From Lysobacter sp. (lineage in GTDB: Bacteria > Pseudomonadota > Gammaproteobacteria > Xanthomonadales > Xanthomonadaceae): DNA of 64,000 nucleotides. Where the stretch lies: positions 124,001 to 188,000 of the forward strand of contig JAHCAU010000003.1 in the NCBI GenBank assembly GCA_019634715.1, written 5' to 3'. This document shows, in pieces, positions 26,293-30,263 of this stretch. The notes beneath the pieces are model-generated. The model made no database searches and was not told the origin of the DNA. It saw only the letters and a list, made by a program, of their open reading frames with translations. The translations under genes were made by a program, and so were the position numbers. Every line of letters begins with the position of its first letter. Position 1 is the first letter of the stretch.

Positions 26293-27120
26293 ATGGCCGA
26301 CCGGCTCGATGCCCTGTTCACCCACTTCGCCGTCACTGCCCGGATGTTCAATGCCGGGCCGCTGTGCGGGATCAACGATATCGACGAGCCCGAGGTCGGC
26401 CATCTGCACGTGGTCCGCGCAGGCCGGGTCGAGGTCCGGCATGGTGGCGCGCTGGCCGTGGAGGTGGTCGAGCCGACCTTGCTGTTCTATCCCCGCCCGT
26501 TGCCGCATCGCTTCGTCACCGATCCGGTGCATGGCGCGACCCTGTACTGCGCGCGGCTGCGCTTCGAGGGCGGCGCATCGAACCCGGTCACCGAGGCGCT
26601 GCCGCCGCTGATCGCCTTGCCGCTGGCGTCTCTGGAAGGCATCGATGCCGTTCTGTCGCTGCTGTTCGACGAGGCCTTGCACGAGCGCTGCGGACGGCGA
26701 GTGATGCTCGATCGCCTGTTCGAGGTGCTGCTCGTCCAGGTGCTGCGCAACCTGATGGAGCGCGGCGAGATGCAGGCGGGCATGTTCGCGGGCCTGGCGC
26801 ATCCGAAGCTGCGCCTGTCGCTGGTTGCGATGCACGAGCAGCCGGCGGAGGACTGGACGCTCGACGGCCTCGCGCAGCGCGCCGGCATGTCGCGCAGTGC
26901 CTTCGCCGGCGCATTCCGCGAGGTGATCGGTGAGACGCCCGGCGCCTACCTGCAGCGCTGGCGGATCGGCCTGGCGCAGCGCGCCTTGCGCGAGGGCAAG
27001 GCCCTGAAGCGCGTGGCCGACGATGTCGGCTACGGCAGCGAGGCGGCGCTGTCGCGTGCGTTCAAGGCGCAGACGGGGCGGTCGCCGCGCGAGTGGCGGG
27101 CGTCGATGCGCGAAGGCTGA
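26293..27120 (+). CDS. AraC-family transcriptional regulator
   Basis: 275 residues from ATG 26293 (TTG 26275 is an alternative). The N-terminal ~170 residues are a cupin-type sensor domain ([29 protein letters not shown]) of the AraC_binding group found next to oxidoreductases and hydrolases. The C-terminal ~100 residues carry two helix-turn-helix motifs ([19 protein letters not shown] and [19 protein letters not shown]). Its 3' end overlaps the lodB 3' end by 59 bases on the opposite strand. Confidence 0.9.
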
Positions 27121-28255
27121 GCGCTTTCGTCCCTGCGTCCGTCTGTCGCCGCGACCAGTAGGGCGCTTCCGGCCAGCGCGTTTCCATCGCATGGAAGGCA
27201 CGCAACTGTTCGCGGTAGACGCGATGGATGTCGAGCAGGTGGCGGGCGTAGCCGTCGAGGGCTGCGGCATCGCCGGATTCGTGGTGGAACAGGGCATCGG
27301 CGGCGCGCAGCCCGGTGTAGATCGCATTCGCGATGCCTTTCGATGACAGCGGATCGAAGGCGAGGGCGGCGTCGCCGACGGCGAACCAGCGCTCGCCAGA
27401 AGCGAGATCGAGATGGCAACCGGATGCATCTGCGCCCGATGCGCGCGATGCGGGTGCGTAGCCGTGCGCCGTGCACAGCGCGTGCAGGGCCGGTGCATCG
27501 ACGAGCGCGCGCCAGAGACCGTCGCCATAGAGCAGGCGACGGTGGTCGCAGAGATCGGCGTCGGTGAGGAAGGCGACGAGTCGTTCCCGCGACGGCAGCA
27601 GCACGCTGTACCACCAGCCATTCTCGACCGCTTCGACCCAGGTGCGACCGTCCTGGTCGTCGTCGCGCGCGCTGCGCAGGCGCTGGTGGAAGGCGATCTG
27701 CGCGTCGTGCGCGATCCTGCGTGCGCCGAGCGCGCGGGCGAGCGACGCGGCGCGGCCGGTGGCGTCGATCAGCCAGTCGGCGTCGATGGATTCGATCCCG
27801 GCGTATGTCTGCCCATCGACGGGCTGCAGCGCGAGTCGGTGCGGTCTCGTCGAGTCGCCGGGCGCCATGATGCGCACGCGTGCGTCGGGCAGAATCTCCG
27901 CGCCGGCCTGCATTGCCGCATCGCGCAGCATCGCGTCGAAACGCGTGCGATCGAGCTGCAGGCCGTGGCCGTGCAACTGGAACAGGAAATCGTTGGCGTG
28001 CGGCGTGATATCGCCCCAGACCGCGCAGGTGCCGGGGCTTGCTCGATGGCCATCGGTGAGCGTGCGTTCGAGCACGCCGAGATCGCGCAGCAGCGAACGC
28101 GCATTGGGCGGCAGGCCTTCACCGACCTTGAACCCGGCGGCGTCGCTGCCCGCGACCAGCAGTACGTCCCGGCCGGTGCGGGCGAGCGCGATCGCGGCGG
28201 CGGCCCCCGCAGGCCCGCCGCCGGCGATGACGACATCGCGTCGCCGCGTCGACAC
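27062..28255 (-). CDS. lodB: LodB-like FAD-dependent maturation oxidoreductase
   Basis: 397 residues from GTG 28255, one base after the lodA stop. The FAD-binding [15 protein letters not shown] is at the N-terminus, and a halogenase/hydroxylase-like body follows with [26 protein letters not shown] and [15 protein letters not shown]. Proteins of this group are required to form the cysteine tryptophylquinone cofactor in LodA-type oxidases. Pairing with lodA supports that role over a free monooxygenase function. The 3' end runs 59 bases into the end of the convergent AraC gene. Confidence 0.85.
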
Positions 28256-28256
28256 G

Positions 28257-30263
28257 TCAGTCCGGCTGGCGCGTGCGTCGCACCGGCAGCGGCGCGGCAT
28301 CGGCTTCCGACTGCGAGGCGAAATTCACGCCGCTGAGCCGCAGCTTCGCCATCGGATGCGCCTTGAGCGCGGCTTCGACGCCGGATGCTTCCGCAACGGC
28401 GCGAGGCGGTGCCTGGACTGCGGCATCGCTCGTGGTCGCGGCATCGGCCGGCGCCACGTCGGGGCCGTAGCTCGCCACCATCATCACAGCCGGGAATTCC
28501 GGCGCCACGCTGGCATCGAAGCGCGGCTCGACGAGGCCCATCGAGCCGAAGATGTGCGTCATCTGCACCATCTGCTGCGCGGTCGTGCCGTGCAGCGGCT
28601 TGTTCCAGCTGGTGCGGTTGCTGAAGGCATCGATGCGTTTCGACATCGGCTGGGTCTTGTCGATCACGATCGCGTAGTCGTCGGCGGTCAGCACGTGGTT
28701 CGGCACGCGCGCGGGCCAGAAGGTCGGCGCATACGGGTCGTAGGCGGTGTCGTAGCCGGCGCGGCAGAACGCGGTGTCTGCCTGCCAGGGCAGGCCCATC
28801 CAGCGATTGATGTCGCCGGGACCCTGCGCATGCAGCGGGCCGTCCGCCGCGAGTGCCTGCGCCTGGTCGAGCGTCGGACCGTAATCCGGCTCGGGCTGGC
28901 CCGGCGGGCGTTCGAGGATGCGGAACGGCGCGCGGTACAGGGTGATGTGGCGCATCGGCCAGGTCATCTCGCAGCCGGGGTGGAAGGCGTCGGCGAGGCA
29001 GAACTCCATCGCCGCGCGATCGATCGTCGCCGGCTGCGCAGCCAGCGGCACCTGGTCGATGTCCGACGGGCCTGCGGCCGGCAGGCCATCGACGCGATCG
29101 TCGACGAAATCGCCGTTCACCCAGCGCTGCAGGATCGTGTACTGGGTCTGACTGATCGCCGCGTTCTGGCGCGGACTCGGCCCCGCGGGCACCTCCATCG
29201 CGTCGCCGTAGATCCAAGGCCACGGCAGCTGGTTGCCATCGGGCGGATTCGGCGGACGGAAGGTGTTGAAGACCTGGCGGCGCAGTTCGGCATCGGGGTC
29301 GTACTGGCCCGCCGGCGGTTTCGAGGCGAGCCGCGCGACGAAGGCCGGATCCTCGAACGGATGCGGCCCGTCTTCGCCGTACTGCGTGGCGAAGCCCTGG
29401 TTCACCCACTGCAGGCCCGAGAGCCGCTGCAGGATCGGGTAGATGTCGTGGCTGAAGGACAGCGTGCCCGGCGCCTGCATCCAGCCGGCCTGGATGTACA
29501 GGTCGTACAGCAGGTCGTAGAGCGTGCGCTCGGCTTTGAGCTGAGGCGCGTAGTTCGGCGGCGCGGTCACCACCCAGGCCGAATCGACCGGGATGCTGTT
29601 GCCGCCGATCGACACCGTGGCCGTGATCGGGCCGTCGCAGGTGTCGTCGTACCAGCCATCGGCGTTGATGAAGGAATTCGGGTCGGTGGGAATATAGATC
29701 GGCGTGTTCTTCGGCGAAGCCGAGACGCCATGGCCGCCGAGGAACAGCAGGCGGCCGTGTTCGTCGGTGCGCAGCTCGCCGATCTTCACCGGCACGCCGG
29801 TGTAGGCGCCGCTGCAGTTGACCGGTGCCGCGTTCCTGCCGGAAATCGACTGCGGGCCGGCGTCGATGGTGAGCGAGGCGCGGTCGGTCACCATTGCATT
29901 GCGCAGCGGCAGCACGGTCCCGGCGGCTTCCGGGATGTCCATCGCGATCTGCCACTGGTACCACGAGGCCTTGCGGTTCGCGACGTGCGCGGTCCAGGTG
30001 ATGTCGGCGTTGTCTGCGGTCAGTTCGCCGACGACTTCGCCGGCGGCGTTGTAGCCGTAGATGCGGAATTGCGCCGCCTCGCGCTTGAGCGCGCCGGTGG
30101 TGTCGCGGTAGAAGCCCTGCGGCTTCGGCGCGGGTTCGGGCACCAGCGGGCCGATGTAGAAGTCGTCGACACTGTTGCCGACCCGGGCCAGGCCGATGCC
30201 CGGGTGGATGGCGGCGCGGACGATGGTGCTGTCGGATGGCGTGCTGTCGGAAGGCGTGGTCAT
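28257..30263 (-). CDS. lodA: LodA/GoxA-like cysteine tryptophylquinone amino-acid oxidase
   Basis: 668 residues from ATG 30263 with AAGGA upstream. The opening [18 protein letters not shown] is the family signature. The cofactor residues are likely Cys431 in HPGCEMTW and Trp493 in LPWQAD, a spacing of 62, close to the 65 known for Marinomonas LodA. Such enzymes oxidise the epsilon-amino group of lysine (LodA) or glycine (GoxA) and release ammonia and hydrogen peroxide, giving antimicrobial activity in some bacteria. Which substrate is used cannot be decided here. No signal peptide is seen, as in the family. It is cotranscribed with lodB. Confidence 0.87.

Follow-up and report, generated by a model that had tools for sequence, protein, structure and literature searches.

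The window, by which we mean the whole 64,000-nucleotide stretch of Lysobacter sp. DNA that was analysed (contig JAHCAU010000003.1, positions 124,001 to 188,000), carries a gene pair, lodAB, which we regard as likely to be the operon of a group III CTQ oxidase, in which a LodB-like maturase completes a cofactor from Cys500 and Trp516 and the mature enzyme oxidises an amine or amino acid, the substrate being probably neither lysine nor glycine. The gene pair, the fold, the cofactor residues (by alignment), the group, the purifying selection and the absence of a catalase-like N-terminal domain were computed directly here. As no assayed group III enzyme was found in the literature, we infer the oxidase activity and the CTQ of the product, P0001. 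The family is otherwise a known one, and the value of the locus lies in the corrected cofactor residues, in the group III placement and in a comparison of fused with unfused forms.

The lodA-lodB gene pair and its surroundings

The genes concerned are:
28257-30263, minus strand: lodA-like gene with an ATG start, encoding 668 amino acids (P0001)
27062-28300 (open frame), minus strand: lodB-like gene for an FAD flavoprotein, the putative CTQ maturase
Upstream, divergent from lodA: gene for a tadA-like deaminase, so named on sequence grounds
Downstream, convergent with lodB: gene for an AraC-type regulator

The sequence AAGGA precedes the ATG of the lodA-like gene, the stop codon of which lies at 28257-28259. 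The open frame of the lodB-like gene extends back to an ATG at 28300; however, a GTG at 28255 is the likelier start, since it stands directly behind the lodA stop and a short distance before the FAD motif, and since a GTG is found at the same place in the close relative L051. The gene would then run from 27062 to about 28255. The outer coordinates given in the original prediction, 27062-30263, were exact.

P0001 matches the Pfam families PF17990 (LodA_N, E 1.1e-76) and PF18417 (LodA_C, E 7.4e-39) over the whole protein and far above the Pfam cut-offs. The lodB-like product carries an FAD motif and matches the NCBIfam GoxB and LodB models, both with E of about 1e-65. Its scores on the LodB and GoxB equivalog models (219.9 and 226.5 bits, respectively) are below the 400-bit cut-off of both, as is expected for the partner of another group, and it is homologous to these maturases and occupies the equivalent place in the genome; a lodB-like gene was found beside nearly all lodA relatives. 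Against the two closest relatives, L051 and L052, dN/dS was 0.12 and 0.09, respectively, in lodA, and 0.20 and 0.23 in lodB. Both genes are under purifying selection and have been kept functional, and their pairing is not due to chance. The assignment to the LodA/LodB-type CTQ oxidases and the operon logic, both proposed in the original prediction, are supported by profiles, fold and synteny, and the flavoprotein gene does follow the oxidase gene on the same strand. The proposed Xanthomonad-like origin agrees with the closest named record, a Lysobacteraceae bacterium at 96% identity.

The unit, of an ordinary kind, consists of lodA and lodB alone. Inspection by eye revealed no signal peptide. 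Relatives of the lodA-like gene were absent among viral contigs; plasmid-borne relatives occur, every one of them less than 60% identical. Three genes adjoin lodAB at 24639-27120: one for a peroxiredoxin of the Ohr family, one for an alpha/beta hydrolase and one for an AraC regulator that most resembles RclR (reactive chlorine). This trio stands beside lodAB in L052 and partly in L051, and was not found within 6 kb in the catalase-fused relatives.

Group placement, cofactor residues and fold

P0001 scored 162.6 bits on the LodA equivalog NF038172 (lysine epsilon-oxidase; cut-off 600) and 403.2 bits on the GoxA equivalog NF038173 (glycine oxidase; cut-off 750), and by these curated cut-offs it is neither LodA nor GoxA. 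The nearest relatives found by the scan, at 62-96% identity, belong to Lysobacteraceae, Paracidovorax, Cupriavidus, Dyella, Pseudomonas and others, among them a protein of Cupriavidus sp. UYPR2.512 with a 70% identical core and an open frame of 1030 amino acids. In the tree, this protein and that of Streptomyces afghaniensis 772 stand in the clade of P0001, apart from the distant LodA-like rows. Catalase-fused LodA-like proteins were all placed in group III in Table 3 of PMC4417212, and we equated the two proteins with those of that table by strain name and length. Judged by descent, P0001 is assigned to group III of Campillo-Brocal 2015 (PMC4417212), a call that rests on these two catalase-fused proteins in a tree free of verified group I or II reference sequences; no LodA or GoxA genome sequences over the curated cut-offs were found in the class-wide sample to serve as references. 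The substrate group, which the original prediction had called unclear, is narrowed by descent to group III, that is, to neither the lysine (IA) nor the glycine (II) group (PMC4417212). Group III is apparently a widespread, large and uncharacterised branch of the LodA/GoxA CTQ oxidases, one without a known substrate.

Several other relatives deserve mention. The same bacterial family also yielded two more distant LodA-like proteins, L014, which has a von Willebrand factor A domain at its C-terminus, and L015, the alignment of which to L014 covers that part as well. The von Willebrand factor A fusions in PMC4417212 were from two actinobacteria only. Pseudomonas sp. FEN holds two lodA-like genes (L075 and L077) on one small contig and a third copy (L071) elsewhere, and the neighbouring lodB matches of both L075 and L077 are broken up over several frames. 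In L013 (genome G101), the lodA-like match contains two internal TGA stops and is either a decaying copy or a sequencing error.

The CTQ of LodA is built from C516 and W581 (PMC4417212). The cofactor residues were aligned by a profile search with 89 relatives, with a 20-residue numbering offset of chain 2ymw (relative to 3weu) removed. The LodA segment PWQADFFNC aligns with PWQADTAFC of the window protein, and YWWPPQSP with TFWPARVP; C516, W581 and D512 of LodA fall on Cys500, Trp516 and Asp496, respectively. The Cys and Trp of PlGoxA, the Pseudoalteromonas luteoviolacea glycine oxidase, align likewise, and its D678 falls on Asp496, the numbering being confirmed by the D678 mutant structures. 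All 89 aligned sequences, without exception, have Cys500, Trp516 and Asp496. The codons are as follows:
28764-28766, minus strand: Cys500, the predicted cofactor Cys (LodA C516)
28716-28718, minus strand: Trp516, the predicted cofactor Trp (LodA W581)
28776-28778, minus strand: Asp496, a conserved Asp of the active site, four positions ahead of the cofactor Cys (PlGoxA D678)
28971-28973, minus strand: Cys431, the cofactor Cys of the original prediction
28785-28787, minus strand: Trp493, the cofactor Trp of the original prediction

A cofactor cross-linked between Cys431 and Trp493 had been proposed, and this pair has some features to commend it: of the 75 group III rows, 74 have Cys431 and every one has Trp493, and their spacing of 62 is close to the 65 of LodA. 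However, C516 and W581 of LodA align directly with Cys500 and Trp516, and position 431 is occupied by Val in PlGoxA and by Ile in LodA. In 71 of the 89 rows the cofactor Cys and Trp stand 16 apart; the spacing ranges from 5 to 35 over the rows and is 15 in PlGoxA. Because it differs so widely across the family, a spacing of 62 residues is no guide to the cofactor; it was misleading, and the proposal was probably made by matching the LodA value. In the alignment check that had been suggested along with it, the pair falls away from the known cofactor positions; alignment to LodA and PlGoxA rules these residues out, and the cross-link between them is scarcely credible. Cys431 is better described, on the alignment, as a group-specific cysteine outside the cofactor positions, and Trp493 as a neighbour of the cofactor site, namely the invariant Trp within PWQ. 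The original prediction was thus correct about the family and wrong about the cofactor residues, its observation being confirmed in part and its interpretation supported in part.

The AlphaFold2 model of P0001 (pTM 0.89) matched PlGoxA (6byw, 6eer) with Z 41-42 over approximately 560 residues at 31-32% identity, and LodA (2ymw, 3weu) with Z 30-34, with all other chains from Z 7.5; Foldseek agrees. The loop from Cys500 to Trp516 is among the few low-confidence stretches of the model. Two further codons belong to the pocket:
29670-29672, minus strand: Phe198 (PlGoxA F316; LodA Tyr211)
28980-28982, minus strand: His428 (PlGoxA H583; LodA Cys448)

Both residues are kept in 74 of 75 group III rows each. 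From the titles of mutant structures, we take F316, H583, D678, Y766 and H767 to be important residues of PlGoxA. The F, H and D of this set have counterparts in P0001 (Phe198, His428 and Asp496) and the Y766/H767 loop is absent, which leaves the set incomplete; 'YH' occurs in the segment of that loop in none of the 89 aligned sequences. Also absent from P0001 is the insertion of approximately 50 residues that LodA has between its cofactor Cys and Trp. By these residues the pocket is mixed: it differs from that of LodA and matches that of GoxA in part.

The far end of P0001 carries one more feature:
28278-28331, minus strand: conserved C-terminal tail of 18 residues, behind a variable linker

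The tail pattern in near relatives is roughly [AG]NFxSxEEAxxAPLPVR, and the linker ahead of it is variable and of low confidence in the model. The tail looks like a candidate docking motif; a search for it on other proteins gave no convincing match in 11 genus genomes. Two Dyella proteins (L064 and L068) have two tandem copies of it at their C-termini, and a related tail, AGWxSxEQLxAFRxVRVxKR, is found in Acinetobacter, Agrobacterium and others.

The catalase-like N-terminal domain

In 34 of the 74 aligned group III relatives, the N-terminus is extended by a fused domain of roughly 350 residues. Its predicted structure is matched best by the 33-kDa catalase-related protein (3e4w) and then by ordinary catalases, and in the alignment of the fused domain His69, Asn148 and Tyr334 are invariant; by analogy with catalase chemistry, these would be the distal His, the distal Asn and the proximal haem Tyr. 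The catalase fusion itself was already known (PF00199 type; PMC4417212). P0001 begins approximately 15 residues ahead of the LodA fold and has no such domain. No remnant of it was detected upstream of lodA, nor was a stand-alone copy found elsewhere in the genome, which encodes two ordinary catalases.

At the tadA site, the fused form is present in L053, L055 and L006, and the bare form in the window, L051 and L052. This comparison of fused and unfused genus-mates at one chromosomal site is a modest new point. The state changed at least 15 times on the tree, and fusion is therefore evolutionarily labile. A single clade of all tadA-site LodA copies was rejected with L053 included (AU p 0.00023); a clade in which the window trio joins L055, L006 and L063 was not rejected (p 0.26). 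An in-place loss of the domain in the window lineage is, on these two results, plausible but not proved. The genus-mates, some fused and some bare, offer a clean comparison between self-quenched and released peroxide; two of them share the non-rejected clade with the window. Two Agrobacterium vitis strains (L089 and L090) show a recent change like that at the window locus: their lodA-like proteins are very close, and one is fused with the catalase-like domain and the other bare.

Proposed reaction, alternatives and known systems

By analogy with LodA, GoxA and their maturases LodB and GoxB (PMC7876137, PMC4417212), Trp516 would be hydroxylated first, and the flavoprotein would then be needed for the second oxygen and for the cross-link to Cys500; these two residues are the ones for any cofactor test to target. 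The quinone would form a Schiff base with a primary amine or amino acid, as in LodA and GoxA, and yield an aldehyde or keto product, ammonia and hydrogen peroxide. On the same analogy, the enzyme is probably an oxidase of an amine or amino acid that builds its cofactor from its own side chains. As this copy is without the catalase-like domain, the peroxide would escape quenching within the same protein.

A lod gox double mutant of Marinomonas mediterranea, in which the group III gene is still present, had neither lysine nor glycine oxidase activity left (PMC4417212), although this result may reflect a lack of expression. Together with the mixed pocket, it favours a substrate other than lysine or glycine, with glycine as the main rival. 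A divergent GoxA-like glycine oxidase, with a glycine pocket formed by Phe198 and His428 as it is by their equivalents F316 and H583 in PlGoxA, would fit the fold, which is closer to PlGoxA than to LodA, and the NCBIfam GoxA model, which gave the best score among the models; these two GoxA-like residues make a glycine-like substrate possible. The score is nevertheless far under the GoxA cut-off (403 of 750 bits), the Y766/H767 loop is missing, none of the 89 sequences has a YH in that segment, and M. mediterranea deprived of gox but not of its group III gene shows no glycine oxidase activity (PMC4417212), so that we consider a glycine oxidase unlikely. The case for a lysine epsilon-oxidase of the antibacterial type (LodA, group IA) is weaker still: family, fold and maturase are held in common, but P0001 reaches 163 of 600 bits on the LodA model, has Phe and His in place of LodA Tyr211 and Cys448, lacks the insertion of about 50 residues between the cofactor Cys and Trp and is placed in group III, which makes this reading extremely improbable. 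A LodA-fold protein that has lost its oxidase function could be suspected, given that group III is without any known activity and that the catalase-like domain is missing from the window copy. Against this, the cofactor residues are all kept, lodB is kept and dN/dS is about 0.1, and we judge such a loss very unlikely.

The group III CTQ oxidase acting on neither lysine nor glycine is the reading we prefer. A bolder form of it, which we regard as doubtful, would have group III oxidise a substrate new to CTQ oxidases, with the fused domain deciding whether peroxide is destroyed or released, and would have the window lineage convert a catabolic enzyme that quenched its own peroxide into one that emits it, with its chromosomal site unchanged. 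Antibacterial and dispersal or biofilm roles are known for other groups only.

Compared with known systems, the window protein shares with PlGoxA the fold, the CTQ residues and the pocket Phe and His, but is without the Y766/H767 loop and below the curated GoxA cut-off. With LodA, the lysine epsilon-oxidase of M. mediterranea, it has the fold in common and the CTQ Cys and Trp align, whereas the spacing between them is 16 instead of 65, Phe and His replace Tyr211 and Cys448, and the score is below the LodA cut-off. An FAD-binding flavoprotein adjoining the oxidase is common to this locus and to those of the LodB and GoxB maturases and QhpG, although the lodB-like product falls below both the LodB and GoxB equivalog cut-offs. 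The group III protein of Cupriavidus UYPR2.512 has the same CTQ residues, a downstream lodB and the C-terminal tail motif, and differs in its catalase-like N-terminal domain, of which the window protein has none.
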